Source: Salipiger thiooxidans
GTDB lineage: Bacteria > Pseudomonadota > Alphaproteobacteria > Rhodobacterales > Rhodobacteraceae
Reading direction: 5' to 3'
Length of the DNA: 64,000 bases
Assembly (NCBI RefSeq): GCF_900102075.1
Contig: NZ_FNAV01000001.1
Span: 1 to 64,000, forward strand
This document shows positions 1,288 to 45,149 of the stretch, piece after piece (position 1 is the first letter of the stretch; each line of letters starts with the position of its first letter). A model generated the notes under the pieces. The model did no database searches. It was given only the letters and a program-made list of their open reading frames with translations, and was not told the DNA's origin. The position numbers and the translations under genes are program-made.

Positions 1288-1332
1288 TACTGTTACCCGG
1301 CAGGCGATTTGCATGGCAAATCTGCCGAGAGG
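1288..1332 (+). repeat. Short palindromic insert A inside IS481 remnant
   Basis: This block of about 45 bases separates GSAT from THAVRAAIQ in the transposase frame. Its arms read CCCGGCAGG on the left and CCGAGAGG on the right. The centre is a perfect 7-bp stem, GATTTGC at 1306-1312 with GCAAATC at 1316-1322, and a 3-base loop. The arms match insert B and the inserts in the two IS5 copies. Confidence 0.6.
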
Positions 1333-1367
1333 CCACGCACGCCGTCAGAGCAGCAATACAGCGATCC

Positions 1368-1406
1368 ACTGCCCGACAGGGTCATGCGCAGCATGATCCC
1401 GAGAGG
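1368..1406 (+). repeat. Short palindromic insert B inside IS481 remnant
   Basis: This block of about 39 bases lies between AAIQRS and SLATLSREL of the transposase. The arms are CTGCCCGACAGG and CCCGAGAGG; the central stem is TCATGC (1382-1387) with GCATGA (1391-1396) around a GCA loop. It resembles the inserts at 43246 and 44797 over nearly its full length, but with a different stem sequence that still pairs. Confidence 0.65.
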
Positions 1407-1604
1407 GGAAAGCTTCGCTCGCGACGTTGAGCCGGGAGCTCGGGATCAATCCCAAGACGGTTGCGAAGTGGCGCAAACGGCAGACGGTCGATGATCTCAA
1501 GACCGGCCTAACGGAGCCTCGTTCGACGGTCCTCACCGAGGCTGAGGAGGCGGCCAGCCCGCGTTGAACAGCGCACAAAGGAACAGCGTCCGGCCGCCCA
1601 CATC

Positions 1605-2310
1605 TCATTCCCCGGGCGGCGGGACCAGCGGCACGGAATTGTCGCCGTTCACATTGCCATTGAAGAACGGCACGATGCCGACGATCAGCATCGGCACGAC
1701 CACCATCAGGCCGATCCACATCTGTACTCGAGCGGTGCCAAGGATGCCCCGGTGCTGGATCGCGAAAGTGATCAGCATCAGCGCAGCACCGATGAAGAAT
1801 GCTGCGCCCGCGTCGATATCCGCAAGCCCGAGGAGCGAGAAGCGCAGCACTGAAAAGCTTTGCAGGAACGGCGTGTTGGCCTCGGTCAGCGCAGCGATTG
1901 CGGCCTGTGCCGCAGCGCCGTCAGACAGGCCCTGGATCGCTTGCGCGTTGGCGGCGCTGCCAAGCCAGACCAGCACCTCTGGCGCGCCCGGGGTAAAGAC
2001 CGGCATCGGGGCGACGGCGTTCAGGACATAGCACGCTGCGATGGCGCACCCCAGCGACAGAACCGGAGTCCAGGCGAACCGGTTCCACCAGACCGACAGC
2101 GGTGCGAGGAACTTGCTGTAACGTAGCGAGGCGGCCACACCAAAGACCGCAGCCCCACCCGGCTTGTTTTTGTTCTGATCGAGATCAGCACAAGCGCGGG
2201 CACGCCGCTTGCGATCCAGAAGGCCCCTTTCCAGTCTATGGCACGGTGCAGCCCGTCCACCTCGTTCACGGATGTTTCGGCGCGATGTCCGCCGCGGAAT
2301 TTAAGGACAT
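1605..2310 (-). pseudogene. APC-family amino acid permease, multiply broken
   Basis: The start is an ATG at 2310 behind a strong GGGAGG site, giving MSLNSAADIAP and then a frameshift. The next frame reads ETSVNEVDGLHRAIDWKGAFWIASG, which is typical of the first membrane segment of APC permeases. After SGVPALVLISI about 40 residues expected from the family are missing, and a new frame resumes at NKPGGAAVF and runs through several hydrophobic segments (WIGLMVVVPMLIVGIVPFF). It stops early at 1605, beside IS481 debris, lacking the second half of a normal permease of roughly 450-500 residues. A frameshift, an internal deletion and a truncation make it nonfunctional. Confidence 0.75.
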
Positions 2311-2769
2311 GTTTCCTCCCTTTTGAACTTTTCGCCAGTTTCAGAATTTGCACACCAGACAATTGCATTGCACCAAGCAGGAACAAACTTCGAACCCAGC
2401 CCGATGTGCGGCTTGAGGGAACGGCAGGAGATGTCGTCTGAAACACCCGAAACCGGCGGGCTCTGTCCCGAGATGGCGTCGCTGCCATCCGAATTTTCGC
2501 TTGAGTTACAGGCGGGTGCCGGGGCGTCTCTTCAAAGCCCGTCGTGAAGGGAGGATTTGCGTCGCATGCGCGCCGGGCCTGCGGCAATAGTTCGAAGGTC
2601 GGGTGTGCCGGTCGCGCCGCAAATCGGCGCGTTTCCACATCAAAGGCGGGGGCAGCACCGGAATCACGGGCGCCGCCGCGCGGTTCGTCCAGGGGCGGCA
2701 TCTACGACCTTTGTTTAATTTATGGCAAAATGGCTTTACACAAGTTAAACATTGCGATGAGTTGCAATC
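2311..2769. promoter_or_regulatory. 459-bp intergenic region, probable promoter of the polyol operon
   Basis: No convincing gene is seen in this stretch between the divergent permease remnant and the GlpD-like gene. Its last 60 bases become A+T-rich (around 2709-2752), unlike the surrounding GC-rich DNA, and contain TTTACA at 2735-2740. This is the likely place for the promoter and regulator sites of the downstream operon. The middle part has no structure I can assign. Confidence 0.5.
2713..2750. promoter_or_regulatory. Candidate operator: GTTTAA/TTAAAC inverted repeat
   Basis: GTTTAA at 2713-2718 and TTAAAC at 2745-2750 form an inverted repeat spanning the AT-rich segment just upstream of the operon start. 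The centre-to-centre distance of 32 bases is about three helical turns. It would suit the multimeric SorC-type regulator encoded at the operon end. Assignment is inference; short inverted repeats also occur by chance. Confidence 0.35.
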
Positions 2770-4467
2770 ATGACAAGCAGCACCCCCTTCCTCTCTCTTC
2801 AAGAGCCGCACGCCGAGACCCTGCGCGAAGACACTGCGCGGCGGCTTGAGGCGCTGGCGGACCCTGAGGTCCTGATCATCGGCGGCGGCGTCAACGGTGT
2901 GGCGACACTGCGCGAGCTGGCACTGAACGGCGTGTCCTGCGTGCTGCTCGACACTGGGGATTTCTGCACCGGCGCCAGCGGAGCATCGAGCCGCATGGCC
3001 CATGGCGGGCTGCGCTATCTCGAAGGGCGCGAGTTCCGGCTGGTGGCCGAGTCCGCGCGCGAGAGAAACCGGCTCGTGGCCCATGCGGGTCATCTGGTCA
3101 AGCCGCTCGAAATCGTTGTGCCGATCGAGCATCGGCTGCGGGGCTTCGGGCGGGCAGTGCTGCGTTTTCTGGGTCTGTCGAAGCGCAGCGGGCCGATGTC
3201 TCTGCTTGCGCTCGAAGGGGGCCTGCTGGTCTACGAAATCTTCGGGCGGCGCGAGCATCCCCTGCCCTCGCACAGCACCTTTCTGCGCCGGTCGGGCTTT
3301 CCCGAAGGGCTGCGCGATACGACCCGCGCAGTGACCAGCTATTTCGACGGCCAGATCACCCAGCCAGAGGGGTTGGTGATGGAAATGCTGCGCGAGGCGC
3401 TGGATCAGGGGCCGCAGGTTGCCGCGCTGAACCATGTCTCCTGGCAGGCCGAGGGCGGCGCAATCACATTGCGCGACCGCTTCGGCACCGGCAGTTGGAC
3501 GCTGCGCCCCAGGGTGATCGTCAACGCCACCGGCGCCTGGATCGATCAGGTCAACGCCGAGCTTGGCGGAAACACCCGTTACCTGCGCGGCATCAAGGGC
3601 GCGCATCTGGTGCTGCACAACCCGCAGCTTTTCGAGCGGATGGCCGGGCGGGCCTTCTACTTCGACGATGGCACCGGGCGCATGGTCATCACTCTGCCCG
3701 TGGACCGGAACGTGCTGGTCGGCACCACCGAGGTCGAGACCACGGATCCCGATGATCGCCGTGTCGCCGAGGATGAGATCGCCTATTTGCTGCGCGCCAT
3801 GGATGGACTGTTTACCGACATCTCGGTGGACCGCTCACAGATCGTCTCGGTCACATCGGGCATCCGCCCCCTGCGCAGGGGCGTTGAAGGATCGGCGACC
3901 AGTGCGGCGCGGGATCACGCCCTTGAGGAAGACCGGTTTCCGGCCTGCCCCGCGCCCGTGCTGTCTCTGGTCGGCGGCAAGTGGACCACCTTCCGTGCTT
4001 TTGGCGAAGAAAGTGCGGATCGCGCGCTGGCGCTGCTGGGACGGTCGCGCCGCGTCTCGACCGCCGCGCGGGACTATCCCGGCGCAAGCGCTTGCACTGC
4101 CGAAGAACTGGACCTGCCGCTATCGCTCGGCAAGCGGCTGATCGACCGCTACGGCGCTCTGGCGCGCGAGGTTGCGCCGCTTTGCCGCGACGAGGGCGCC
4201 GTGCCGATGGCGGGGGCATCGGACTGGTGCCGGGGCGAGATTCGCTGGGCGATCCGCGCGCGCGGTGCCGCCACGCTTGAAGATCTGGTGCTGCGCCGGA
4301 CCCGGCTGAGCTTTGGTGAGGGGCTGCGGCCCGAGACGCTCGAGGATCTGGTCACGCTGCTGTCGCAGGAGACGGGGCGCGACGGGGCCGAGCTGGAGGC
4401 AGAGCGCCGCGCCGCCCTGCGCGATCCAAGACTGATGGGGACCCGCGCCGAACCGGCGTCGATATAG
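2770..4467 (+). CDS. GlpD-like FAD-dependent glycerol/polyol-phosphate dehydrogenase
   Basis: The 565-residue protein has an N-terminal FAD-binding GGGVNG motif (residues 38-43), the GASGASSRMAHGGLRYLE segment characteristic of GlpD, a FYFDDGTGRM/VGTTEVET middle part and a C-terminal alpha-helical domain. GlpD enzymes oxidise sn-glycerol 3-phosphate to dihydroxyacetone phosphate at the membrane and pass electrons to quinone. Its position beside an FGGY kinase, a sugar ABC importer and a SorC-type regulator resembles erythritol-type operons, where the homologue EryB oxidises a polyol phosphate. The true substrate may therefore be a polyol phosphate other than glycerol phosphate. The next gene starts 18 bases downstream. 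Confidence 0.85.
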   Translation: MTSSTPFLSLQEPHAETLREDTARRLEALADPEVLIIGGGVNGVATLRELALNGVSCVLLDTGDFCTGASGASSRMAHGGLRYLEGREFRLVAESARERNRLVAHAGHLVKPLEIVVPIEHRLRGFGRAVLRFLGLSKRSGPMSLLALEGGLLVYEIFGRREHPLPSHSTFLRRSGFPEGLRDTTRAVTSYFDGQITQPEGLVMEMLREALDQGPQVAALNHVSWQAEGGAITLRDRFGTGSWTLRPRVIVNATGAWIDQVNAELGGNTRYLRGIKGAHLVLHNPQLFERMAGRAFYFDDGTGRMVITLPVDRNVLVGTTEVETTDPDDRRVAEDEIAYLLRAMDGLFTDISVDRSQIVSVTSGIRPLRRGVEGSATSAARDHALEEDRFPACPAPVLSLVGGKWTTFRAFGEESADRALALLGRSRRVSTAARDYPGASACTAEELDLPLSLGKRLIDRYGALAREVAPLCRDEGAVPMAGASDWCRGEIRWAIRARGAATLEDLVLRRTRLSFGEGLRPETLEDLVTLLSQETGRDGAELEAERRAALRDPRLMGTRAEPASI

Positions 4468-4485
4468 GGACGGGGAGACCGGATC

Positions 4486-5958
4486 ATGAGCACACCAGTG
4501 CTGATCGCCATTGATGCCGGTGGGACGGCGGTAAAGGTCGTGGCCTTCGACCTGGAAGGCGTCGAGATCGCCACCGAAACAGCGGATGTTCCCACGCAGC
4601 ACCACCCGGACGGCCGTGTCGAACGCGATCTGGAGCCGTTCTGGACCGGCACCGTTTCGGCGCTGCGCCGCCTGACGGCCGCTTGTGCCGGACGTGAGAT
4701 CCTGGGGGTGGGCTGCACCGGTTTCGGCAACGGCATCTTTCTGGTCGACGAAGATGGCCGCGCCACCCGCCCCGGCATCGTGTCGGTGGATCACCGGGCT
4801 CAGCCGCTTGTCGATGCGCTCACCAAGACGGGTGCCGCGCGCGAAATTTCTGCCGTGACCGGGCACCGTCTTTGGGGTGGCCAGACGGTGATGCAGATCG
4901 CCCGCCTGGCGCAGACCGAGCCGGAGGTCATGGCGCGCACCCGCTGGGCGCTTGCCTGCAAGGACGTCATCCGCTTGCGGCTGACCGGCGCGGCATTGAC
5001 CGACCCGAGCGATGCCAGCGGCGGCGGGCTGGTGGATCTGGCCTCAGGCGACTATGCTACGGAGGTGCTTGAACGGCTGGGCCTTGGCGCGCATCTGCAC
5101 CGCCTGCCGCCCATCGTGGCGAGCGATGCGGTCGCGGGCCGCATCAGCCGAGAGGCCGCCGAGGCCACCGGCCTGCCCCAGGGCACCCCCGTCGCCGGCT
5201 CAATGATGGATGTCGCCGCCTGTTCGCTGGGCGCGGGCGCGGTGGATGCGCCGGTGCTGACCATGATCGCGGGCACCTGGTCGATCAACAGCCTTGAAAG
5301 CGATGCACCGCTGGGCGACGCCGCGCCGATCCTGAACATGCTCTATCGTGGCGACAAGCGTCTGATTGCAGAGGGCAGCCCAAGCTCTGCCGCCAATCTT
5401 GGCTGGTTTCTCGACCGGGCCCTGGGGCAGCGCGTTGGTGTGGACGAGGCGAACGCGCTCGTGGCCGCAAGCCGGGCAACCGGGCGGCGCTGCCAGTTCA
5501 TGCCTTACGTCTTCGGGCCGGAGCCGCGTCGTGGCAGCTTTGTCGATCTGGGGGCAACCGACGATCTGGGAACCATGCTGCGCGCGATCTACGAAGGGGT
5601 CGCCTTTCAGGCGCGCCGCCATGCCGAGGATGCCGTGGGTCTGGCCGGGCAGGTCTTTCCCGGAACCATCCGGCTGGCGGGGGGCGCCGCGAAATCGCCG
5701 GTCTGGACCCAGATCTTTGCCGATATCTGCCAGCGCCCGGTCGAGGCCGTGCGCGCCGGAGAGGTGGGCGCACTGGGGGCCGCGATCTGCGCCGCCGTCG
5801 CGTCGGGCGCCTATCGCGATCTGGCCGAGGCCACGGCGCGGATGACGGGCACGGCCCGTCGCGATGATCCCGACCCGACGCTTGCCGAGCTCTACGATAC
5901 ACGCTTCCGCGCGTTCCGTCGGTTCGACCTGGGACTGGCGGCCATGATGATGGACTGA
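4486..5958 (+). CDS. FGGY-family carbohydrate kinase
   Basis: The 490-residue protein carries the N-terminal phosphate-binding motif IDAGGTAVKVVAFDLEG (from residue 9), an interior RPGIVSVDHRA segment and a C-terminal LAGGAAKSPVWTQIFADICQRPVE, the classic FGGY signature 2 region. Such kinases phosphorylate polyols or ketoses with ATP in the cytoplasm. The N-terminus looks most like the L-xylulose kinase (LyxK) branch. With the dehydrogenase upstream, the logical order is import, phosphorylation, then oxidation of the phosphorylated polyol. A GGGGAGA site precedes the ATG. The family is certain, the substrate is not. Confidence 0.88.
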   Translation: MSTPVLIAIDAGGTAVKVVAFDLEGVEIATETADVPTQHHPDGRVERDLEPFWTGTVSALRRLTAACAGREILGVGCTGFGNGIFLVDEDGRATRPGIVSVDHRAQPLVDALTKTGAAREISAVTGHRLWGGQTVMQIARLAQTEPEVMARTRWALACKDVIRLRLTGAALTDPSDASGGGLVDLASGDYATEVLERLGLGAHLHRLPPIVASDAVAGRISREAAEATGLPQGTPVAGSMMDVAACSLGAGAVDAPVLTMIAGTWSINSLESDAPLGDAAPILNMLYRGDKRLIAEGSPSSAANLGWFLDRALGQRVGVDEANALVAASRATGRRCQFMPYVFGPEPRRGSFVDLGATDDLGTMLRAIYEGVAFQARRHAEDAVGLAGQVFPGTIRLAGGAAKSPVWTQIFADICQRPVEAVRAGEVGALGAAICAAVASGAYRDLAEATARMTGTARRDDPDPTLAELYDTRFRAFRRFDLGLAAMMMD

Positions 5959-6010
5959 GCGCCTTCGGGACGCCGGGCGAGACAAACAGCTTTTCAAGGG
6001 AGGAAAGACA

Positions 6011-7285
6011 ATGAGAAAGACGACGTTTCTACTGACAACCGCGCTCTGCGCAGCGGCGCTACAGGCCCAGGCGCAGGACATGTCCTGCAAGGGGAAGCTG
6101 TCGACGCTCAACGTGATCGGACAGGGGATGCCCGCCGTCACCGCGCTGGACTCCTACCTGCCCGAGTTCAACGAGAAATGGGATACCGAAGTCAAGGTGA
6201 CCATGCTGGGCGAGAACGAGCGCCGCGCCAAGGCGCGCCTCGATGCCTCGACGGGCGCGGGAGCATATCAGGTGCTCTATATCGACGAGGCAAACCTTGC
6301 CGAGTATGTCGATGCGGGCTGGGTCTATCCGCTGGCCGACGTGGTGCCCGAAAACTATGAGATCGGCGATTTTCGCACCGATCTGAGCAATGTCGCCACG
6401 GTTGACGGCGTGCTGTATTTCGCCCCCTTCGTGGGCGGCGGCGACGTGATGATGTACCGCAAGGACCTGCTTGAAGACGCCGGGATCGACACGCCGACCA
6501 CGCTGGACGAGATGGTCGCGGCGATCAAGGCGCTGGACGAGGCCGACAACGGCGCGCATGGCTGGTCGGCGCGCGGGCAGCGCGGGTCTGGCATGAATGT
6601 CTGGCGCTGGACGCCGTTCTTCCGCGCCATGGGCGGCGAATGGCTGGACGGCGATATGCCCGCCTTCAACAGCGATGCGGGCGTTGAGGCGACAGACCTG
6701 TACATCGACCTGATGAAAAGCGCGCCTCCGGGTGTGGCGACCTTCAACTGGTCGGATTCGGTCGAGGCGTTCCGGGGTGGCCAGGTCGCCATCCTGATTG
6801 AATCCGACGTGTTCGGCCCGTGGATGGAGGACCCGGCGAAATCCTCGGTGGTGGGCAAGGTGGGCTATGCGCCGCCGCCCGACCCGCTGCCCTCGGCAGG
6901 CTGGGCGCATGGCTGGGCGGTGTCCAAGACCGGCGCGGCTGACGACTGCACCAAGGCCATCGCGGGCGATTTCGTGGGCTGGGCCACCTCCAAGGAGATG
7001 GAGCAGCGCCGGCTCGAGGCGGGCATCGCCTCGGATATCGGCCGCACCTCGACGCTGCAAAGCGACGCCTACAAGGCGCTTGTGCCTGCCGAGTACATCG
7101 AAGCGCTGCTGGCCACCGGCGACAAGACCAACCTTCTGATCATGAAGAGCCCGGTCTGGCCTGAAATCGGCGACAACCTTGGCCTGACGCTCGAAGAGCT
7201 GTTCGCGGGCACCCGTGACGACGTGCGCGGTGCGCTGGACGAGGCGGCCTTCTTTGCCGAAGACAGCCTGATGCAGCTCAAATAA
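6011..7285 (+). CDS. ABC sugar/polyol transporter, periplasmic substrate-binding protein
   Basis: The 424-residue protein starts with a signal peptide (MRKTTFLLTTALCAAALQAQA, cleavage near residue 21-22) and has the layout of family 1 extracellular solute-binding proteins: KGKLSTLNVIGQGMPAVTALDSYLPEF near the N-terminus, then YRKDLLEDAGIDTPTTLDE and a WAHGWAVSK segment. It should capture the substrate in the periplasm for the two permeases downstream. An AGGGAGGAAAG ribosome site gives a strong start, common for binding proteins that must outnumber their membrane partners. The 52-base gap after the kinase contains no evident promoter. Confidence 0.88.
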   Translation: MRKTTFLLTTALCAAALQAQAQDMSCKGKLSTLNVIGQGMPAVTALDSYLPEFNEKWDTEVKVTMLGENERRAKARLDASTGAGAYQVLYIDEANLAEYVDAGWVYPLADVVPENYEIGDFRTDLSNVATVDGVLYFAPFVGGGDVMMYRKDLLEDAGIDTPTTLDEMVAAIKALDEADNGAHGWSARGQRGSGMNVWRWTPFFRAMGGEWLDGDMPAFNSDAGVEATDLYIDLMKSAPPGVATFNWSDSVEAFRGGQVAILIESDVFGPWMEDPAKSSVVGKVGYAPPPDPLPSAGWAHGWAVSKTGAADDCTKAIAGDFVGWATSKEMEQRRLEAGIASDIGRTSTLQSDAYKALVPAEYIEALLATGDKTNLLIMKSPVWPEIGDNLGLTLEELFAGTRDDVRGALDEAAFFAEDSLMQLK

Positions 7286-7351
7286 CGCCCCCTTTCCGGC
7301 GCGCCCCGCTTTCGGGTGCGCCGGAGCCATCCTTTGCCTGAAGGACATGCC

Positions 7352-8224
7352 ATGACCCGGAAACGGTTCGTCACCTTGTCGCTTGTGCCAGCAATCGGCC
7401 TGCTTGCTACGCTGGCGCTGGTTTCGGTGGCCGGTGCTGTGTGGTTCTCGTTGATGAACCGGACCCTGCGCTCGGCAGATTACGACTTCGTCGGCGCCTA
7501 CAACTTCCTGCGCCTGCTGCGCGACCGGCGCTTCATGAACGCGCTGGAAATCTCGGCGCTTTGGGAAATCATCACCGTGCTCGGAACGCTGGCGCTGGCG
7601 GTGCTGCTGGCGGTAATGATCTTCGAGACGGTGAAGAAACCGCTTTGGCGCAACCTCTTGTGCTTTGCCTTCCTGGTGCCGGTGCTGCTGCCCCGGGTGG
7701 CGGCGGCGTTCATCTGGCGGTTCCTCTATTCGCCATCGCTCGGTGTCATCAACTACCTGTGCGGTCTGGTCGGCATCGGCCCGGTCGAGTTCCTGGCGGA
7801 CCCATCTCTGGCGCTGATCTCGGTCGCGGTGGTGGATATCTGGCAATGGGGCCTGTTCTTCACCGTGATCCTGCTCAAGCTGCTGGAGACGCTGCCGCGC
7901 GATCCCATCGAGGCGGCGCTGCTGGACCGGGCCCGCACGTGGGAGATCCACGCCTATGTCACCCTGCCGATGCTCAAGGGGCCGCTGATCAGCCTGGCAC
8001 TGGTCAAGGCGGTGGAAAGCCTCCGGTCCTTCGATCTGATCTTCGTGATGACCGGCGGGGGGCCGGGCACCGCGACCGAAACGCTCGACCTTTACGCCTA
8101 TCAGATGGGCATCAACATGGGTGGGCGCATCTCCTATGCCTCGGCCATGTCCATCCTGCTGCTGATCGTCACAACGGTCGCCTTCACCATCATCTGGAAA
8201 GCGGGGAAGAAATGGGCAAGCTGA
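7352..8224 (+). CDS. ABC sugar transporter permease 1 (MalF/UgpA type)
   Basis: The protein has 290 residues with about six membrane segments, beginning LSLVPAIGLLATLALVSVAGAVWFSL, and the cytoplasmic EAA loop IEAALLDRARTWEIHAYVTLPMLKGPL that docks to the ATPase. The ATG at 7352 is preferred over an upstream one at 7316 because AAGGA lies correctly before it and the membrane segment follows at once. The 3' end overlaps the start of the second permease by 13 bases, implying coupled translation and a fixed heterodimer. Confidence 0.87.
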   Translation: MTRKRFVTLSLVPAIGLLATLALVSVAGAVWFSLMNRTLRSADYDFVGAYNFLRLLRDRRFMNALEISALWEIITVLGTLALAVLLAVMIFETVKKPLWRNLLCFAFLVPVLLPRVAAAFIWRFLYSPSLGVINYLCGLVGIGPVEFLADPSLALISVAVVDIWQWGLFFTVILLKLLETLPRDPIEAALLDRARTWEIHAYVTLPMLKGPLISLALVKAVESLRSFDLIFVMTGGGPGTATETLDLYAYQMGINMGGRISYASAMSILLLIVTTVAFTIIWKAGKKWAS

Positions 8225-9027
8225 TTTCCGCCATCGGGGTGCGCGTGCTGCTGGCCGTGCTGATCGTCGTGGCGCTGGGGCCGATCCTCTGGACCGTGCT
8301 CGGCGCCTTCAAGGAGCTGCGCGACATCGTCACCCCGGTGCCCAAACTCGTCTTTGAGCCGACGCTGGACAATTTCGCCACCATCCTGCGCAACCCCACG
8401 ATCCGCGACGGGCTGCTGCATTCGGCGATTGTCGTCTCGGTCTCTGTGCTGATCGGCGCGCTGCTGGGCATTCCGGCGGCCCATGTGCTGGCCCGCCACG
8501 CGCGGCGCTATGGCGACGACGTGCAGTTCTTTGTGCTGTCGCTGCGCTTCATGCCCCCCGTCGCCATCGCGATCCCCTTCATCGTCATCTACCTCGATCT
8601 CGGGATTTACGACACGCTGTTCGGGCTGATCCTTGTCTACCTCATCACCACCATCTCGACGGTGATCTGGCTCGCCGTGCCCGCCTTCGAGCGGGTGCCG
8701 CAGAACATCGAGGAAGCCGCCGCCATGGAGGGCTGCGGCCCGGCGGAGATCTTCTGGCGCTTTTCCCTGCCCGTCGCGGCACCGTCGCTCTTCGGCGCGC
8801 TGGTCTTCACCTTCGTGCTGGTCTGGAACGAGCTGCTGCTGGCGCTGACGCTGGCGGCGCAGAATGCCACCCTGCCCGTGGTGGCCGCCTCGATCACCTC
8901 GCTGGGCAAGGAAGTGCCCTGGGGCGTCATCAACGCCGCGACCGTGGTGCTGGTTCTGCCGCCGCTCGTCTTCATCGGCCTTCTGATGGGCCTGCTCAAC
9001 ACCATGGTCCGCAGCGGCCCGAAATAG
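8212..9027 (+). CDS. ABC sugar transporter permease 2 (MalG/UgpE type)
   Basis: The 271-residue inner-membrane protein begins MGKLISAIGVRVLLAVLIVVALGPILWTVLGAFK and contains the EAA loop EEAAAMEGCGPAEIFWRFSLPVAAP. These are standard features of the second permease in carbohydrate uptake family 1 importers. The start codon lies inside the end of the first permease gene, and the ATPase gene follows after 10 bases. It is expected to form the translocation pore with the 7352-8224 product. Nothing is missing. Confidence 0.87.
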   Translation: MGKLISAIGVRVLLAVLIVVALGPILWTVLGAFKELRDIVTPVPKLVFEPTLDNFATILRNPTIRDGLLHSAIVVSVSVLIGALLGIPAAHVLARHARRYGDDVQFFVLSLRFMPPVAIAIPFIVIYLDLGIYDTLFGLILVYLITTISTVIWLAVPAFERVPQNIEEAAAMEGCGPAEIFWRFSLPVAAPSLFGALVFTFVLVWNELLLALTLAAQNATLPVVAASITSLGKEVPWGVINAATVVLVLPPLVFIGLLMGLLNTMVRSGPK

Positions 9028-9037
9028 GACACATCCC

Positions 9038-10117
<1,080 letters not shown>

Positions 10118-10121
10118 CCCA

Positions 10122-36326: not shown

Positions 36327-36353
36327 CCCCAGAACGCTACGTCAGAATGCATG

Positions 36354-36391: not shown

Positions 36392-36414
36392 GCGCGGCGT
36401 TTTTTGACGCGACG

Positions 36415-37404: not shown

Positions 37405-37474
37405 TCAAGTTCCACTCTTGCCTCGGGAAAACTGTAGCCCGAGGCGCGATTCCAGACAACAGATCCGAAAAAAC

Positions 37475-38890
37475 CTAATTTTTACCGAGGGCACGCAGCA
37501 CACGATCGAGGTCTGCGCCCTGCTGCGACTTCACCGGAGCGGAGCGGACCATGTTGTAGTAGGCCGCCGGATCGTAGACCGGCACCGCGAGCCCGAGCGC
37601 CCTGGCGGTCAACTGACCGATCGAGGCAAGGACCGCGTAGGCGGCGATGGTCTCGTCCACCTGGGCCGAGATCTGCGCGGCGCGGGCGTCGAGAAGCTCC
37701 TGCTCGGCGTCGAGCACGTCGAGCGTGGTCCGGGCGCCCAGCGTCGCCTCCTCACGGATGCCTTCGAAGGCCACCCGCGCGGCGCGCACCTGCTCCCGCG
37801 TCGAGACCAGCGAGGCCTGCGCGATGCGCAGCTGCGCATAGGCGCTGCCCACCGCCTCTTCCACGTCGCGGCCGGTCGAATAGAGTTGCGCGCGCGAGGC
37901 ATCGCGGTCGGCAATGGCCTGCCGCACGCCCGAGGTCAGCCCGCCGCCCTGGTAGATCGGGCCGGAGAGGCCGAGCGCCACGGCACCGCCACGGTTCGCT
38001 CTTTCGGAATCGAAGGTGTCGCTGGCGCCCCAGCTGCCCTGAAGCTCGACCTTCGGCTGCATCTGCGCCTCGGCGATCCTGACGGAGATGTCGTTGGCGG
38101 CGACCACGTGGCGAAGCTGGGTCATGTCCGGGTGGGTGGCCAGCGCCTGCGACTTGGCGTCGGGCACCGAGCCCGGCAGTCGCGGCAGGCCGCCCGGCGA
38201 CTGCAGCGCGCCCGGGTAGTTGCCGACGATGGCGTTGTAGGTCTCACGGTTGACGGCGAGCTGGCCCTCGGCGGCGGCCAGCAGGCTGCGCGCCTCGGCA
38301 AGCCGGGCCTCGGCCAATGCGACGTCGGTGCGGGTGACCTCGCCGACCTCGAAACGGTCCTGCGCGGCGCGCAGCTCCTCGCCGATGACCCGGACGTTGT
38401 TCCGGCGCAGGGTCACCGTCTCTTCGGCGCGACGCACCTCCATGAAGGCGGAGACGGCGCTCAGCAGCACCTGCTGCTCGACCGAGACCAGCGCCGCGCG
38501 GGTGGCGAGCACCGCTTCCTTGGCGGCCTCGAGCCCGAGACGGCGCGCGCCGCCCTGGTAGAGCGTGAGCGAGGCGATGAGGTTCGCGCTGGCGGTGACA
38601 TCGGCGCTTGGCGCCCAGCTGTAATCGCCGGTCAAGAGGTTGGCGTTGTTGGCCGAGCCGTAGTTGCGGCTGACGTTGCCCGACCAGCTCAGGACCGGGC
38701 GCAGTGCGGCGACGGCCTGCGCGACGTCTTCGTCGGCGGCCCGCAGAACCGCCCGGTTCTGGTCGAGCAATCCGCTGGTGACATAGGCGTTCGAAAGCGC
38801 CTCGGCGAGGGTTTCGGCCGACGCCGGAACCGCGTTGACTGCGGCGAGGCACAAGCCCGCCACCATTCCAAAGACCGTTCTGCGCGCCAT
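37475..38890 (-). CDS. tolC: TolC-family outer membrane efflux protein
   Basis: The 471-residue protein has a signal peptide (MARRTVFGMVAGLCLAAVNAVPASA) and two repeats of the outer membrane efflux domain, with coiled-coil-rich helices and typical segments NRETYNAIVGNYPG and EEATLGARTTLDVLDAEQELLDAR. TolC trimers form the outer membrane channel for type I secretion and multidrug pumps. The Pcm gene lies 41 bases upstream on the same strand, an arrangement often seen in alphaproteobacteria. No partner pump gene is adjacent. Confidence 0.9.
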   Translation of the reverse strand: MARRTVFGMVAGLCLAAVNAVPASAETLAEALSNAYVTSGLLDQNRAVLRAADEDVAQAVAALRPVLSWSGNVSRNYGSANNANLLTGDYSWAPSADVTASANLIASLTLYQGGARRLGLEAAKEAVLATRAALVSVEQQVLLSAVSAFMEVRRAEETVTLRRNNVRVIGEELRAAQDRFEVGEVTRTDVALAEARLAEARSLLAAAEGQLAVNRETYNAIVGNYPGALQSPGGLPRLPGSVPDAKSQALATHPDMTQLRHVVAANDISVRIAEAQMQPKVELQGSWGASDTFDSERANRGGAVALGLSGPIYQGGGLTSGVRQAIADRDASRAQLYSTGRDVEEAVGSAYAQLRIAQASLVSTREQVRAARVAFEGIREEATLGARTTLDVLDAEQELLDARAAQISAQVDETIAAYAVLASIGQLTARALGLAVPVYDPAAYYNMVRSAPVKSQQGADLDRVLRALGKN

Positions 38891-38930
38891 GACTGCCCTC
38901 TCTGCCCGCGTTTCTTGCGGCGGCTGCGCT

Positions 38931-39581
38931 TCAGAGTGCGAACGCCGCTTCTTTTTTGTATCCGGGCAGCACCGGCGCGGTCGCGTTGAATGCGAACCGC
39001 CAGGTGATTGCCCCGTCGATCTTCCATCCGATGCGCACCACGCCCAGAGCCCCTTCCATGAAGAGGCAGGCGATGCGGCCACCGTCCTTGAGTTGTTCAG
39101 AGATTCCCGCGGGAAGCGCCTCGACGCCGCCTTCGATCACGATGGCGTCGTAGGGCCCGTGGGTCTTGGCGCCGTCGACCAGCGCGCCCACGTGCAGCAC
39201 GACGTTGTCGGCGTATTCCGACAGAAGCTCCTGCGCCTCTTCGGCCATGGCCTCGTCTTCCTCGACCGCGACGACCGCCTCGGCGATGCGGGCGATCACG
39301 GCCGACGAATAGCCGTACCCTGCCCCGATATCGAGAACGAGGTCATCGTTGTCGAGATTCAGCGCGTCGAGCATCTTGGCCAGTGTCCGCGGCTCGAGCA
39401 CGACCCGGCCCGGGGACAGCTCGACGTTGCGGCCGGCATAGGCCGCCTCGCGCTTGTCGTCGGGAACGAATGCTTCGCGCGGGATCCGCAGCATGGCCTC
39501 GATGATCGGGAACTTGGTGACATCCGAGGGCCGGACCTGCGTATCCACCATCATGCGGCGGCGCGTGGCGAAATCGGTCAT
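38931..39581 (-). CDS. pcm: Protein-L-isoaspartate O-methyltransferase
   Basis: The 216-residue methyltransferase has motif [21 protein letters not shown] and the N-terminal [12 protein letters not shown] ... [23 protein letters not shown] of the PCMT family. It repairs isoaspartyl damage in proteins using SAM, and lies immediately upstream of tolC, probably in one transcript. The usual PCMT catalytic region is somewhat reduced, as is common in the Rhodobacterales version, so activity on isoaspartate is assumed rather than shown. Confidence 0.82.
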
Positions 39582-39672
39582 CCGCTAAACTCTTCCGTTC
39601 AGTATGGTCTCGAATGTTTGTGCCACACTTGCTCCGCTGCCGCAATGACGGAGAGAAACGGATTCGCGCAAA

Positions 39673-39705
39673 CGGGGAAAGGCGCAACACTGGCGCCTTT
39701 CCCCG
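39673..39705. terminator. 13-bp stem hairpin, probable terminator
   Basis: CGGGGAAAGGCGC (39673-39685) pairs perfectly with GCGCCTTTCCCCG (39693-39705). It lies between the minus-strand small membrane gene ending at 39770 and pcm. The T run after it is weak in both directions, so it could also act as an attenuator. Confidence 0.6.
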
Positions 39706-39769
39706 TTGGGATTGATGGTAGGGATGCGACGGCGCGGTCAGGCGCCATCGAGGTCTTCAGTCAGGCTCT

Positions 39770-40129
39770 TCAATCGTCGTCCCGCGGGGTCCCGGCCTGT
39801 GAGGTCCCGGACCCGGACGTTCCGGCCGCGCCTCCGGCGGCACGCCCCGCGAGGAAGGCCTCGAGCAGCGCCGCGATGTTCATTGCGGGGGTGGGCGGCG
39901 GGACCGCAACCCTCGGACGGCGCGCGAAGAGCAACAGCAGAATCGCCAGGACGAGATACCCCGCCCCAACGACCAGCATCGCGATCAGCAAGTCATACGC
40001 CTCGGCCAACGCCACCAGCGCCGCGTCGGTGAAGAAGACAGCGGCAACGATCACGCAGACGAGCGCGAGCGCACCGAATACCAGTTGCCGAACGAATAGG
40101 CGCAGCCGCAGTTCGAGCGCGTAGAACAT
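39770..40129 (-). CDS. Small phage-holin-superfamily-like membrane protein
   Basis: The 119-residue protein has two long membrane segments (LVFGALALVCVIVAAVFFTDAALVALAEA and LIAMLVVGAGYLVLAILLLLFA) and a Gly/Ser/Ala-rich tail. Together with the DUF883 gene 9 bases upstream it forms a two-gene unit of the type YqjD-YqjE, where the second protein is holin-superfamily like and thought to act in envelope stress or ribosome anchoring. Function is inferred from that pairing. Confidence 0.65.
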   Translation of the reverse strand: MFYALELRLRLFVRQLVFGALALVCVIVAAVFFTDAALVALAEAYDLLIAMLVVGAGYLVLAILLLLFARRPRVAVPPPTPAMNIAALLEAFLAGRAAGGAAGTSGSGTSQAGTPRDDD

Positions 40130-40138
40130 CTGGCCTTA

Positions 40139-40495
40139 TTACCTCCGGGCGTTCAGGTAACCCAGCAGGAAGCCCGCCGCAGCGGCAATACCCACCGCCT
40201 GGAACGGGTTGGCACGGATCTGGCCGATGGCCGCGTCCTCGTATTGCGCCGCGCGACGGCCTGCCTCGTGCAGCAGCTCCTCGCCCTGAAGGCGCATTTC
40301 GCCGGCCTTTTCCTCGACCTTGCGCTTGGCGTCCTTGCTGCGGCGCGTGCCGATCTCGCCCACGAGCTCGGTGAGCCCGGCGAGGTCCTTGCGCAGCGTC
40401 GCGATCTGGGCGCTGAGGTCGTCGGCGTCGCGGGACCCCTTGTCGCTGCCCGACTGCGCCCCGGTTGCGGCGGCTTGTACGGATGCATTTGCCAT
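40139..40495 (-). CDS. DUF883 (YqjD/ElaB-type) membrane-anchored protein
   Basis: The 118-residue protein has a helical, charged N-terminal part (DLSAQIATLRKDLAGLTELVGEIGTRRSKDAKRKVEEKAGEMRLQGEELLHEAGRRAAQYE) and a C-terminal glycine-rich membrane helix (NPFQAVGIAAAAGFLLGYLNARR), the DUF883 signature. YqjD and ElaB of E. coli bind ribosomes at the membrane in stationary phase; a similar role is possible here. GGGAGATC precedes the ATG. It is transcribed with the holin-like gene. Confidence 0.85.
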   Translation of the reverse strand: MANASVQAAATGAQSGSDKGSRDADDLSAQIATLRKDLAGLTELVGEIGTRRSKDAKRKVEEKAGEMRLQGEELLHEAGRRAAQYEDAAIGQIRANPFQAVGIAAAAGFLLGYLNARR

Positions 40496-40848
40496 GGTCC
40501 GATCTCCCTTCGGAAAGATGTGGTTGTCGGTAAAACGCGGAGCCGCGGGCAATGGTTCCGGCGTCCCCCGTCATTCTCTGTGTCGGTCGGCTGTTCTGGC
40601 GGGCACCCTTGCGAGGTGCACCGGCAGGCCACCGTCCTGACCGCCGAAACAACGGCTTGCCGCGACTGTGCCACGCGCGTCGCCTCTCGCAAAGCGCGAA
40701 CGCGCGTGACCCTCTGTCGCCCCTGCGCCGCCGCAGTCACCGGCAGCTTCACGCCGTCCCGGGCGCCTCGGAGGCACTGCGGTTTCGCGGCATCCCGCGG
40801 GAGCGTATGGTGTGAGGAGGGAAGAGACCAAGTGCAGGAGGAAACCTC
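40496..40848. other. 353-bp intergenic region
   Basis: No gene can be supported. It separates the divergent DUF883 gene and the 47-codon gene at 40849, so it should hold two promoters. The translations of its open frames are dominated by Arg, Ala and Pro and show no motif. GAGGAGGGAAGAG near 40814-40826 and AGGAGG before 40849 are ribosome-site-like. Confidence 0.4.
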
Positions 40849-40992
40849 ATGTCCCGAAATACGTTGATACTCCTTGCGATTGTCGTGGTCGTCGCGATCA
40901 TCGTCATGGCGACGATGGGCCAGGAGGAGGACGCCACCATGGCCCCAGAGACCAACACCGAGGAGGTCCCGGCGGCCCCCGCCACCGAGTGA
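40849..40992 (+). CDS. 47-residue single-pass membrane peptide
   Basis: An ATG at 40849 follows an excellent AGGAGGAAACCTC site and opens a 47-codon frame: a short basic start (MSRNT), a strong hydrophobic helix (LILLAIVVVVAIIVMATM) and an acidic tail ending PAAPATE. Such charge pattern places the C-terminus outside. It resembles small alphaproteobacterial stress peptides, but I cannot name the family. The ribosome site and helix make real coding likely. Confidence 0.6.
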   Translation: MSRNTLILLAIVVVVAIIVMATMGQEEDATMAPETNTEEVPAAPATE

Positions 40993-41041
40993 TGCCGGCG
41001 CTGCCCCGACTGCTTTCGTTCGGCTCTCGCGCCGCGAGGGG

Positions 41042-41268
41042 TCACTGAAGCCCGGCCGGGTCGATGCCCCCCTCGTCGCAGACGGCGCTCTGCGGACCGC
41101 CCGCGAGGATCAGCGCGCCGATGTCGGCGCCCCCGGGCAGCTCGGCCCTTGAGCGTGACTGTGATGTCCTGCACCAGCACCCTGCCCCGTCGCCCTTGCA
41201 CTGCATCTGCACCCGCTCGCCGGCGCCTGCACCGAAGTCCTGGTCGAAGACGGCGCAGCTCGGCGCTG
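41042..41268 (-). pseudogene. C-terminal fragment of an unidentified protein, frameshifted
   Basis: One minus-strand frame reads FDQDFGAGAGERVQMQCKGDG and, after a gap, RAELPGGADIGALILAGG, ending in DEGGIDPAGLQ and a stop at 41042. The middle is better read in another frame (VLVQDITVTLKG), so two compensating indels are likely. The 5' end is lost where the IS3-type transposase remnant begins. I do not recognise the family. Confidence 0.35.
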
Positions 41269-41269
41269 G

Positions 41270-41592
41270 TCACGCTGCCGCCCACTCGTATTTCAGGGTG
41301 CGCCACAGCCTCTTGATGAAAATGTTGTCCCGGAACCGGCCTTTCCCATCCATTGATATGCGCACCCCAGATCGGCGGAGCCGATCCGTCCAGGCGAAGG
41401 ACGTGAATTGGCTGCCCTGATCCGTGTTCATGATCTCGGGCGGGCCGAACTTGTGGATGGCCTCATTCAGCGTTTCGACGCAGAACTGGGCTTCCAACGT
41501 ATTCGAGATCCGCCAGGACAGAACCTTGCGGGTGTGCCAGTCCATGATCGCCACGAGGTAGAGGAACCCACGCCGCATCGGCAGATAGGTGA
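41270..41592 (-). mobile_element. IS3-family transposase (OrfB) internal fragment
   Basis: The minus strand encodes LTYLPMRRGFLYLVAIMDWHTRKVLSWRISNTLEAQFCVETLNEAI, then FGPPEIMNTDQGSQFTS and RISMDGKGRFRDNIFIKRLWRTLKYE, which are DDE core segments of IS3-type OrfB. Both ends are missing: it starts within the core and stops 4 residues after LKYE. The second Asp (NTDQGSQF) and the Glu region (normally NIFIERLWR, here FIKRLWR) are visible; the catalytic Glu has become Lys, confirming decay. Confidence 0.82.
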
Positions 41593-41800
41593 GGCGTTGT
41601 TGCAGAACTCTGGCTGCGGGCGATTCACAGTGTGAATCCAGCCGGTTAGACGGTCTGCATGAGCAAGCCTTTTCCCGCCCGCTACGGCACGACGAACTGG
41701 TCCAGCTACAACACTGCCTTGCGCAAGCGCGGCTCAATGTTGATCTGGATAGACCGGAGAGATGGCTTGGCTTGCGCCGCATGAATGCCGGCTCGGACGT
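41593..41800 (+). mobile_element. IS5-family element, left end and transposase N-terminus
   Basis: Starting at the end-like GGCGTTGTTGCAGAACTC, the sequence passes a subterminal palindrome (GATTCAC/GTGAATC, 41622-41638) to an ATG at 41658. The frame reads MSKPFPARYGTTNWSSYNTALRKRGSMLIWID, typical of IS5-type transposases, then shifts frame and is cut off near 41800 where integrase sequence begins. Its RGSMLIWID region is uninterrupted, unlike the two IS5 copies at 42870 and 44386. Confidence 0.72.
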
Positions 41801-41805
41801 CCATG

Positions 41806-42402
41806 GGGCTTCTCACGAAGGCGGAGGAGAACCCGGCCAAGGGCATCAAGGCGTTGAAATACGAGAAGAAGGAGCGCGAGCCATCGCCGGACACGATGGT
41901 TGCCGCCTTCCGCAAGGCCTACGCCTACGGGACCCGTGAGCGCACACTGTTCGAGATGTGCCTCGGGACCGGGCAGCGCATCGGTGACGTGCTCAGGATG
42001 CAGTGGGGACACGTCCGGGGCGACACGATTCTCGTGATCCAGGGGAAGACCGGCGCTCGGCTTGAGATACCTCTCACGCCGCACCTGTCGGCAGCGCTGG
42101 AGGCCACGGAGCGCCAAAGCCTCTTCATCCTGACCAAGGATTTGTCGAAGACGAAGCGGCCGGGACAGTGGGAGTATCGAGGAGCATCAGACGCGATGCG
42201 TGCAGCGAGAGAAGCAATTGGCGCACAAGACTACGACCTGCACGGCCTGCGCTACACAGCCGCCGTCGAGCTTCTTCTCGCTGGCTGCAGCGATGACCTG
42301 ATCTCAGCCGTCACGGGCCAGAGCGGCGCGATGGTACGCCACTACACACGGCACGTCCGGCAGCGTGTCAGTGCACGTGAAGCGCAGGTGCGCCGCGGGT
42401 GA
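41806..42402 (+). pseudogene. Tyrosine recombinase/integrase lacking its N-terminal domain
   Basis: About 199 codons encode the catalytic domain of a phage-type integrase: the first Arg in LGTGQRIGDVLRM, the Lys loop GKTGARLEI, the LHGLRYTAA (H-x-x-R) box and the nucleophile Tyr in MVRHYTRH. The N-terminal arm- and core-binding domains, normally 150-200 residues, are missing, replaced by the IS5 remnant. It ends 112 bases before a tRNA-Cys gene, a classic integration target. Catalytic residues are kept, but without DNA-binding domains it is likely inactive. Confidence 0.8.
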
Positions 42403-42514
42403 TTTTCAGCTTGAGAACAGAACAGAACGGAACGTGAAAGTGTGGCAATCTGTGTGGCGGAAGGGCTTGCGCGCCTCGAAAGGATGGTCTAAACGCCCGC
42501 TACCACTGGGCGAC

Positions 42515-42588
42515 GGCGAGTTGGCGGAGTGGTGACGCAGCGGATTGCAAATCCGTGTACACCGGTTCGATTCCGGTACTCGCCTCCA
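42515..42588 (+). tRNA. tRNA-Cys (GCA)
   Basis: The 74-base sequence folds as a standard tRNA: acceptor GGCGAGT with ACTCGCC, D arm GGCGGAGTGG-type, anticodon stem CGGAT/ATCCG with anticodon GCA at 42547-42549, T arm CCGGTTCGATTCCGG and an encoded CCA. The anticodon reads cysteine codons. A truncated integrase lies just upstream and IS debris downstream, so this tRNA has probably been an integration site. Confidence 0.95.
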
Positions 42589-43245
42589 AATTTCCCATTT
42601 TATTTCAATAACTTAGACCATTTCGCCTTGCCTTGCGGGCGCGCGAACAAAGTGCGTACATCCGAGGACGAAGCGGGAACAGCAAGCTGACTTTTGTTCC
42701 AAAACTTCGTTCCGGTTTCCGTCACGCGCTGGCTCCGAATGTCTCAAATTTTCACAAGTATATGAATTATAATCTATATTTTTCTCCTGTGCCCGCGTCT
42801 GACGCAGCGGAGATGTCGTCCGTTGATTAGAGGCGAGCACTCGGGACTAACGTAGACTACGCGCCTTCCGGGCGGTGGGGAATCTGTCCGCAGGATTTCG
42901 TTGCGCGACAGCTCCGGCGGTGCCAGGTTTCCAGGGTTTGGCGTTCTTGCGGGGCGGTATGATTGCGGCGGCACCTCGGGCGGCGATGGCGTCGTGGCAC
43001 TTGCGCGTGTCGAAGGCGCCATCGGCGGTGACGGTGGCGATCTCCTGCTGGGGCGGGATCTGGTCGAGCAGCTCGGGCAGCATGGGGGCGTCACCGATCT
43101 CGCTGGTGGTGAACTCCGCGGCCCGGATTTCCAGTGATTATTCGTCGATACCGATGTGGATCTTGCGCCAGACCCGCCGCTTCGTGCCGCCGTGCTTGCG
43201 GGCGTTCCACTCCCCTTCACCCTCGACCTTGATCCCGGTTCTGTC

Positions 43246-43285
43246 CGCTGCCCGGCAGGGCATTGCGCAGCAATGTCCCGAGAGG
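43246..43285 (+). repeat. Short palindromic insert C in IS5 copy 1
   Basis: A 40-base block separates LLV from the expected DSTGI in the transposase. Arms CTGCCCGGCAGGG and TCCCGAGAGG flank the stem CATTGC (43261-43266)/GCAATG (43270-43275) with a GCA loop. It is identical base for base to insert E at 44797-44836, although the surrounding IS copies differ clearly. Confidence 0.8.
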
Positions 43286-43558
43286 GACCAGCAGGTGCAG
43301 CGGACCGTCCGAGCCGCGATAGGGGATGTTCACCTTCAGCATCTTCTGGCGACGCGACAGCGTGCTGAAGTCGGGCACCGTCCAGTCGAGGCCGATCAGC
43401 CGCAGCAGGCTCTCGACGAACCCGGTCGTCTGCCTGAGCGCCATGCCGAACAGCACCTTCATGGTCAGGCAGGTCTGAATGGCCGCGTCGCCGTAGTCGG
43501 GCTGCCGCCCGCGCTTGCCGGTCGGTGTGGCTTCCCAAGTCATCGAAGGGTCGAACCA

Positions 43559-43599
43559 AGCTCTCGTGACATTGCTGCGCAATGCACTGACGGTTAGTG
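43559..43599 (-). repeat. Short palindromic insert D in IS5 copy 1
   Basis: A 41-base block lies between RGSLTI and WFDP and brings an in-frame stop. On the minus strand the arms are ACCGTCAGTG and TCACGAGAG around the same CATTGC/GCAATG stem. The GTG/CAC pair replaces the GGG/CCC pair of inserts C and E, so pairing is kept. The orientation relative to the transposase is opposite to that of insert C. Confidence 0.78.
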
Positions 43600-43749
43600 G
43601 ATCGTCAGCGAGCCGCGGCGCTTCAGCGCTTCGTTATAGGCGGGCCAGTTCCTGGTCTTGTAGGTCGGGGGCGTTGGTCTGCTCATGCAGTCCAGCTACC
43701 ACGCCGGATTCACGAGATGAATCCCTCACGCGATTTGTGCAACAGAGTG

Positions 43750-43760
43750 ACTCGCCTCCA
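43750..43760 (+). repeat. 11-bp copy of the tRNA-Cys 3' end
   Basis: ACTCGCCTCCA matches exactly the last 11 bases of the tRNA-Cys gene (42578-42588), in the same orientation and 1.17 kb downstream, directly beside the IS5 copy 1 end. This fits a short attachment-site duplicate left by an integrated element. At 11 bases, chance cannot be excluded. Confidence 0.4.
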
Positions 43761-43973
43761 CAGACACCCATAAGCCCATGTTTTAAAAGGCTTTTGGATA
43801 ATTTAGATTTGACCCCCTCATCTCACCCACCATCTTGGATGCGCTTGATTGAAACGGGATGACACACTACTTCATTCTTCGGCAAAGCGCGGACGACAAA
43901 GACTGATCTTTTTGTATCTGGAAAAAAGGCGGGGCTGGCTATTCTGAGCAGACTCGAGAGCTGGAATTTAGCC

Positions 43974-44372
43974 TCATGACGCGTTTTTCTTGGCCGCAAC
44001 TTTGATCCGCGCCCTCTCGACACGGTGGCATGTCGGACACAACAGGGCGAAGTCCTTAATTGTTGTGTACCTCACGCCCTCGTCCAGCGGGTGCATGTGA
44101 TGCACGTCCAATAAGGAGCGGGGATTGATGCCTTCGATCCCGCTCACCATCGACGGATCAAACTCGCAGTCGTCGCAATGCATGGCGTTCTCACGCCGTC
44201 GTTTCTTGACGAACTCCTGTGCGAGCCGTGCCGCTCGTTTGCGAACTTAGGCACGCCGCTCTTCTTCCATCCCTTCCAACGCACCGTCAGGTAGGTCTCG
44301 CTCAACCAGTCTGCGGATTCGGTCGTCAATCTCGCTTGCCTCGGCCAACACAAACTCGTCTTCAGTCCCAAT
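43974..44372 (-). pseudogene. HNH endonuclease remnant with an in-frame stop
   Basis: The minus-strand frame reads DEFVLAEASEIDDRIRRLVERDLPDGALEGMEEERRA, a TAA codon, then VRKRAARLAQEFVKKRRRENAMHCDDCEFDP and the HNH core LLDVHHMHPLDEG ... LLCPTCHRVE. CDDC and CPTC pairs form a zinc site and HHMHP carries the metal-binding histidines, as in McrA/HNH restriction-type nucleases. The frame is otherwise open on both sides of the stop, which points to a single nonsense change. The 5' end is cut where IS5 copy 2 begins. Translation from the downstream ATG would still give a 69-residue HNH domain. Confidence 0.72.
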
Positions 44373-44796
44373 CCATGCATTGGCAGCGGTATCCGCTCCA
44401 TCGTCGCCAGAGCGCGCGGCCCAGGTATTTCGCCGCGCTCAGGGCCTCGTTTCGCGCCACGGCTCCGGCGGTGATGGTCTTCCAAGGCTTCGCGTTCTTG
44501 CGGGGCGGGATGACAGCATGGGCGCCACGGTCGGCAATAGCGTCGTGGCATTTACGTGTGTCGTAGGCACCGTCGGCGGTGACGCTGCCGATCCGCTCGT
44601 CTGCCGCGATCTGGCCGAGCAGGTCGGGTAGCACCGGGGCATCACCGATGTGGCTCCCGGTGATCTCGACAGCGCGGACCTCCAGTTTTTCCTCTTCAAT
44701 CCCGAGATGGATCTTGCGCCAGACGCGCCGCTTGGGACCGCCATGCTTGCGGGCGTGCCATTCACCTTCGCCCTCAATCCTGATCCCGGTGCTGTC

Positions 44797-44836
44797 CGCT
44801 GCCCGGCAGGGCATTGCGCAGCAATGTCCCGAGAGG
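44797..44836 (+). repeat. Short palindromic insert E in IS5 copy 2
   Basis: This 40-base block is identical to insert C and sits at the same codon junction (LLI/DSTGI) of the transposase. Stem CATTGC/GCAATG with GCA loop, arms CTGCCCGGCAGGG and TCCCGAGAGG. Confidence 0.8.
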
Positions 44837-45109
44837 GATCAGCAGGTGCAGCGGCCCCTTGGAGCCGCGATACGGGATGTTCACGGCCAGGGTCTTCTGG
44901 CGCCGGGACAGGGTGCTGAAGTCGGGCACCGTCCAGTTGAGGCCAACCAGCCGCAGCAGGCTCTCGACGAACCCTGTCGTCTGCCGGAGCGCCATGCCGA
45001 ATAACACCTTCATGGAAAGGCAGGTCTGGATGGCGGCATCGCTGTAGGTCTGCTGCCGGCCACGCCTGCCTGTCACAGCGGCCCCCCAGCTCATAGCGGG
45101 GTCGAACCA

Positions 45110-45149
45110 ACCTCTCGTGACATTGCTCGCAATGCACTGCCGGTCAACG
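45110..45149 (-). repeat. Short palindromic insert F in IS5 copy 2
   Basis: This 40-base block occupies the same junction (SLTI/WFDP) as insert D. It shares arms ACCGGCAGTG and TCACGAGAGG and the CATTGC/GCAATG stem, but lost one loop base (CATTGCGAGCAATG). It brings an in-frame TGA. It differs from D at several arm positions. Confidence 0.76.

Follow-up and report, generated by a model that had tools for sequence, protein, structure and literature searches.

The opening 64,000 nucleotides (nt) of contig C39 of the Salipiger thiooxidans genome, hereafter the window, contain six short palindromic elements (A to F; 40–43 nt) within transposase genes, which raises the question of what these elements are, how they came to be there, and why transposase genes should carry them. 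We find that they belong to one Rhodobacterales-centered family of mobile DNA hairpins, an unusual small mobile element that has almost only transposase genes as hosts. On balance, we regard it as reasonably probable that this is a hairpin element akin to repetitive extragenic palindromic (REP) sequences, which moves in the form of single-stranded DNA and is maintained in the genes of insertion sequences (IS).

The Hairpin Family in the Salipiger Genome

The genome searched (5.87 Mb, 68 contigs) contains 80 copies at E ≤ 0.01 according to a covariance model, with which 150 of 7,689 first-look candidates were scored. The family exceeds chance, because a pattern based on an ATTGC core gave 36 genome matches vs. 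0 for the reversed pattern, and a pattern of the arms gave 57 vs. 4 in the control. The left arm alone, by which a larger parent element with the same arms was sought, gave 169 genome matches vs. 94 in a high control, among the matches listed. Transposase genes contain or adjoin 79 of the 80 copies: 75 by BLAST (transposase-coding similarity no more than 150 nt away; the number was unchanged after one doubtful reference was dropped), and four by eye (IS66, IS5, IS256, and IS481). The only copy outside a transposase context is at C55:4519.

All six window elements were recovered by the covariance model (E 6e-14 to 6e-5, 64-kb window), although the strong scores of B, C/E, and D are partly by construction, because the 78 elements from which the model was made include B, C/E-type, and D-type sequences. 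Nothing else in the window was convincing, the best further match having an E-value of 0.35. An earlier examination of the letters alone (the sequence-only reading) had seen no copy in intact host genes there. That reading had described a six-member family with the arms CCGGCAG and CGAGAG, inserted in unrelated transposases. The six do form one family, and their hosts are indeed unrelated (an IS481-family relic and two IS5-family copies, PF13737), but they represent four insertion sites rather than six, with C and E at one site and D and F at another in the two IS5 copies; the quoted arms are the majority form, from which B (CCGACAG) and D (CCGTCAG) depart. The elements and their host genes are as follows.

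1207..1566, + strand: IS481-family transposase relic, truncated, host of A and B (approximate limits)
1291..1333, + strand: element A, ATTTGC stem, in the 5′ part of the IS481-family relic; E 6.1e-5; flanks match the IS481-type protein of locus L141
1367..1407, + strand: element B, TCATGC stem, in the same IS481-family relic as A; covariance-model match
42860..43686, − strand: IS5-family transposase copy 1 (PF13737), truncated, host of C and D, with one frameshift and one stop as further lesions (approximate limits)
43246..43286, + strand: element C, GGG..CCC stem, in IS5 copy 1, antisense, immediately ahead of the Asp codon conserved in LLV/DSTG
43559..43599, − strand: element D, in IS5 copy 1, sense, N-terminal site; stem with a T14-A33 pair
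44390..45236, − strand: IS5-family transposase copy 2, 3′-truncated, host of E and F (approximate limits)
44797..44837, + strand: element E, in IS5 copy 2, at the site equivalent to C
45110..45149, − strand: element F, in IS5 copy 2, at the site equivalent to D, one base shorter than D

The elements break the frame of both IS5 genes, with a net 40–41 nt at the IS5 sites; in copy 2, no additional lesion was counted over reference residues 1–256. A reading frame resembling an HNH endonuclease (43976–44380; from translations, by eye) adjoins IS5 copy 2 at its truncated 3′ end, and a tRNA gene (42515–42585; Rfam) adjoins the IS cluster that carries C to F. At the curated threshold, Rfam detected only this tRNA in the window, with no match to the elements; a relaxed search of 43200–43650 gave two miRNA matches, far below threshold.

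Structure of the Element

Members of the family are 36–43 nt in size and have the common form CACTG-NCC-GGCAG-stem-loop-stem-C-GAGA-GGN. The 5′ tag CACTG is single-stranded (variants in the 78-sequence alignment: CGCTG, CATTG, CGTTG, CCTTG, and TGTCA), and is followed by a short outer helix in which NCC pairs with GGN′, an internal loop of GGCA opposite GAGA, and an inner stem of variable sequence that has one bulged T and a very short loop (mostly GNA). The arms are constant, and the stems vary by compensatory change. Twelve nested pairs define the structure in an alignment of 78 distinct elements (41 nt): 97.4% of cells are paired, and 131 cells are altered on both sides relative to the common pair. 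The covariation score is 0.440, vs. 0.102 in shuffles and at most 0.079 with partners slid. The outer pair 6-41 is C-G in 62 elements, A-U in seven, G-C in two, and U-G in two, and is unpaired in five; of the 174 elements in which GAGAG is followed by G, 150 have Watson–Crick partners at base 6 and at the position following GAGAGG. The bulged T (T31) is nearly invariant, and a GNA triloop is present in 102 of 180 elements; GNA-type loops form unusually stable DNA minihairpins. Within the Salipiger genome, the T-A variant predominates at D sites, and the G-C variant at C sites.

Range Across Genomes and Replicons

In a species-level genome collection, the strict pattern CACTGNCCGGCAG..CGAGAGG was found in at least 115 stretches; those listed contain 124 matches, 96 of which have a stem of at least 5 bp (“stem-verified”). 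Among the 80 of 115 records with names listed, stem-verified matches belong to organisms with Rhodobacterales-type names, except for Labrenzia (L123) and an unplaced alpha-proteobacterium (L136), and the matches listed from Nocardia, Ignavibacteriales, Synechococcaceae, and Deltaproteobacteria have no such stem. The strict pattern also occurs in 97 plasmid records, which are from the roseobacter group throughout among the genera listed (eight genera are outside the listing); phage records contain no strict-pattern match. Strict copies are present in 9 of 20 genomes of the genus and in 25 of 120 genomes of the family, with no match to the reversed pattern in either set, such that the wider scan proposed by the sequence-only reading yields many additional copies.

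Insertion Sites

Filled and empty homologues match on both sides of a single point. Such pairs have identities of 96.9% (L195 vs. L143), 96.0% (L178 vs. L187), 94.7% (L063 vs. L087, within the Salipiger genome), and 92.8 and 94.4% (two comparisons of L141 with a Sulfitobacter dubius plasmid); L177 and L189 have an element at the site of B, whereas L141 has none there (94.8% identity over 134 nt). The empty homologous sites rule out that the blocks are conserved parts of the IS families themselves, and the initial likening to REP sequences and Rickettsia palindromic elements (RPEs) is upheld insofar as this is a family of inserted hairpins. The net insertion is ∼37–42 nt, on either strand of the host gene, and a weak Y-C-R-T-C motif precedes the insertion point. 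No target duplication is present in filled/empty pairs; on this ground, a miniature inverted-repeat transposable element (MITE) of a DDE transposon was rejected.

Altogether, 183 elements were grouped into as many as 104 distinct sites with a flank cut-off of 60%, by which some true sites may have been divided; 28 of the sites have more than one stem variant, with a maximum of seven. The occurrence of several stem variants at one site suggests that single insertion points have probably been struck repeatedly. One IS5 gene of Salipiger (L039; C28:2763-3596) has three elements with three different stems.

Host Genes and the Bias Toward Insertion Sequences

The 96 listed stem-verified copies include 86 in IS genes, which represent about ten families; Pfam or BLAST placed 82 of these, and four were added by eye, namely L164 (IS3), L107 (IS6), L166 (IS5), and L167 (IS30). 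A transposase or IS-accessory Pfam family is encoded in the adjacent reading segment for 63 of the 96, and 69 have BLAST similarity to a transposase of another locus (the BLAST references being only partly Pfam-checked); we take DDE_3 to be IS630 and Y2_Tnp to be IS91. The remaining 10 lie outside IS genes. Six are intergenic, in L196, L115, L120, L194 (between a response-regulator gene and another gene), and L197 (two copies); those in L133 and L162 are in a conserved non-coding stretch, and those in L217 and L114 were placed in neither class. Confinement to transposases, as first claimed, thus describes almost all of the copies in this genome and most of those listed elsewhere, but not these 10. 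The counts are raw, not scaled by the IS and intergenic fractions of the genomes, and hence yield no enrichment factor. With respect to the host gene, 28 copies are sense, 38 antisense, and 30 undecided; the use of both strands speaks against a function at the RNA level that depends on the host transcript.

Further observations concern individual locations. In L133, L162, and the Salipiger locus L092 (C55:4519-4555), the element is at one identical point of a conserved non-coding stretch shared by the three genomes; L133 also has an IS200-type Y1 gene ∼0.5 kb from the element, without flanking paired elements. An intergenic region common to three genomes (L194, 6095-6305; also L120 and L197) contains two elements in opposite orientations, outside IS genes, resembling the pairs of bacterial interspersed mosaic elements (BIMEs). 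In L145 (∼2735-2775), the element is in a 27-codon IS3 fragment inside a longer frame with resemblance to an ATPase of conjugation.

One explanation for the bias is that the elements act as a genome brake on transposons, either because host machinery inserts them or because selection keeps insertions that break an IS. This would accord with the finding that transposase genes, belonging to unrelated families, contain or adjoin 79 of 80 Salipiger copies, and with the 19 IS5 stretches of this genome, in which 42 intragenic elements outnumber all other frame lesions (16 frameshifts and 5 stops). Also, some insertion sites are at Asp/Glu codons, the residues presumably being catalytic. However, the sites before Asp are explained by the weak target, because YRTC, in antisense, forms the beginning of an Asp codon; extra elements would be useless in a dead IS copy, yet multi-hit copies are common; and element-bearing IS copies have multiplied, as described below. 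We regard silencing, whether selected or directed, as an unlikely explanation. The elements are the commonest lesion of the IS5 copies in this genome, yet most of those copies are dead otherwise too: 13 of the 19 stretches carry other lesions, and six carry none. These 13 fit the earlier suggestion that dead IS genes are safe landing sites, whereas the rarity of intergenic copies and an IS3 of genome G032, otherwise unbroken in the copy examined, do not; the suggestion is no more than a partial explanation.

Effects on the Host Insertion Sequences and Their Multiplication

Insertion is frame-breaking in most cases, a minority of insertions being multiples of three. Open reading frames (ORFs) of at least 240 aa were found for 42 of 80 copies with the elements left out vs. 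23 with the elements kept, a weak comparison on which we do not lean, because chance long ORFs are common at this G+C content. The IS3 of G032 carries four elements and has six full copies (98.5–99.9% identity) with the element in all; 3-bp end repeats are present in three copies and absent from three, and no element-free full copy was found in this genome. In the one copy examined, orfB is unbroken once the four elements are removed, with no other frame lesion. A Dinoroseobacter-type IS5 with two elements has three copies (99.9–100% identical), in which a nonsense codon is present and end repeats are not visible; thus, dead copies can multiply. In Salipiger, the starts of contigs C11, C26, C32, C35, C41, C57, and C67 and the end of C48 stop within near-identical IS5 copies carrying the N-terminal element, and these eight contig ends therefore indicate a recently multiplied IS that carries this element. 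Collectively, these comparisons show that element-bearing IS copies can multiply, which is no proof that they produce transposase.

The elements might alternatively be tolerated in the manner of introns, by precise excision from DNA in a few cells or by skipping at the level of RNA or the ribosome, with the IS remaining active at a low level and only rarely expressed genes bearing the element. The IS3 of G032 speaks for this, given its six full copies, end repeats in three, and an orfB that is otherwise intact (one copy). At the N-terminal IS5 site, seven copies that are intact between sites (six from Salipiger, one from Puniceibacterium) have a synonymous divergence (dS) of 0.36–2.23 and a non-synonymous to synonymous ratio (omega) of 0.08–0.27, a signal of purifying selection between element-bearing copies that is also expected with later insertion. 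On the other side are the additional lesions in 13 of 19 Salipiger IS5 stretches, the multiplication of the Dinoroseobacter-type IS5 despite its nonsense codon, and the lack of strand bias, which speaks against removal at the RNA level. We judge intron-like tolerance to be quite improbable.

Proposed Mechanism and Mobilizer

Entry is seamless, the target is short and weak, and the ends are fixed but the stem is free; together with the bulged T and the GNA loops, these features fit movement as a single-strand hairpin. The element would enter without target duplication behind the weak YCRTC motif, by “peel and paste” or REP-type movement, and we infer an enzyme acting in trans, such as an HUH enzyme or a hairpin-reading recombinase. 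Accumulation in transposase genes may follow from the tolerance of insertions there, given rare or absent transposase expression; the elements would then travel with the IS, insertion perhaps being seamlessly reversible, and insertions elsewhere would be lost. The IS bias would thus arise from tolerance plus carriage by IS, possibly with selection for IS inactivation, contributions that the data do not separate.

Several results weigh against this reading. The Y1 transposase gene that the sequence-only reading proposed to look for elsewhere in the genome did not appear, with no match to Y1_Tnp (PF01797) in Salipiger (control genomes were positive in 5 of 14 cases). Across the 120 family genomes searched, only 5 of the 25 carriers have a Y1 gene, with none found in the other 20; co-occurrence is weak (strict copies in 5 of 12 genomes with Y1 vs. 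20 of 108 others). No mobilizer was found in this search, which covered Y1 and not other HUH or tyrosine recombinase families. Tolerance and purging alone would predict many intergenic copies, and few were seen, in raw counts unscaled by genome fractions. Among copies filled at the N-terminal IS5 site, the element differs at 0–1 of 33 letters (15 equal-length pairs) despite a dS of 0.36–2.23, which neutral carriage leaves unexplained; either repeated recent entry of the same variant, homogenization, or strong selection on the letters could account for these near-frozen sequences. Structurally, DNA folding of single elements sometimes prefers a fold without the outer helix, the DNA-fold z-scores of the six window elements are modest (−0.7 to −2.9), and an alternative three-hairpin fold also pairs 92.3% of cells; the latter fold was rejected, having no double change in its two side helices.

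A bolder version of single-strand movement is that this is a new class of transposon-dedicated micro-element, a fixed-end hairpin whose entry into and exit from the transposase genes of every IS family would be seamless, by means of an unrecognized hairpin-specific recombinase, and which serves as a reversible switch or brake across Rhodobacterales; this we hold to be doubtful.

Significance and Comparison With Known Systems

Descriptions of small palindromic repeats usually place them outside genes, whereas this widespread family resides within the transposase genes of IS from about ten unrelated families, frequently with several elements per gene. It provides a natural system for the study of transposon silencing or tolerance, and of an enzyme that would insert a hairpin whose ends are fixed but whose sequence is otherwise free. 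The elements probably account for some of the pseudogenes in roseobacter genomes that are classed as “frameshifted transposase.”

No description of this hairpin family was found in the limited literature collection searched. Among known systems, the IS200/IS605 family (IS608, ISDra2) has in common with it a bulged hairpin and insertion on the 3′ side of a short target, with no duplication, but here there is a single hairpin, no gene, a weaker target, and, in most carriers, no Y1 gene. Members of the IS200/IS605 family are known to excise seamlessly.

REP sequences and REPINs (REP doublets forming hairpins), which are moved by the REP-associated tyrosine transposase (RAYT; TnpA_REP), are also short, imperfect, bulged hairpins with an unpaired 5′ tag, many dispersed copies, and no target duplication. 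They differ in that the tag here is CACTG and not the GTAG or GTGG tetranucleotide reported at the foot of the REP hairpin for the TnpA_Y1 family (PMC6006769), the stem is freely variable between fixed arms, the location is in IS genes and not intergenic, and no Y1 gene was found in the Salipiger genome. PMC3733652 describes GTAG and CGTC REPs, the latter without a known dedicated transposase and mostly intergenic, with some within genes (replication and repair genes being stressed); Rhodobacter, Roseobacter, and Ruegeria are not mentioned in its text. CGTC REPs are similarly alpha-proteobacterial, comparable in size, and in part intragenic. The present family could accordingly be a miniature relative of these or another REP class, moved in trans by a RAYT or IS200-type enzyme, as its size, bulged hairpin, unpaired 5′ tag, alpha-proteobacterial range, and the shared lack of a dedicated transposase would suggest. 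Nevertheless, the CGTC/TGTC/CCTC tag is described there as unpaired beside a stem that begins with A-T pairs, and CACTG matches neither this arrangement nor GTAG/GTGG; TGTC or CGTC here is sometimes the flanking target and not a tag. Given also the intragenic position in IS and the 20 of 25 carriers in which no Y1 gene was found, such a relationship is very improbable.

RPEs resemble the present elements in being palindromic repeats inside coding genes. They are, however, ∼150 bp in length and for the most part keep the frame of the working genes that contain them, according to an account of MITEs and RPEs (PMC10969869), whereas the elements described here are ∼40 nt, mostly frame-shifting, and situated in transposases.
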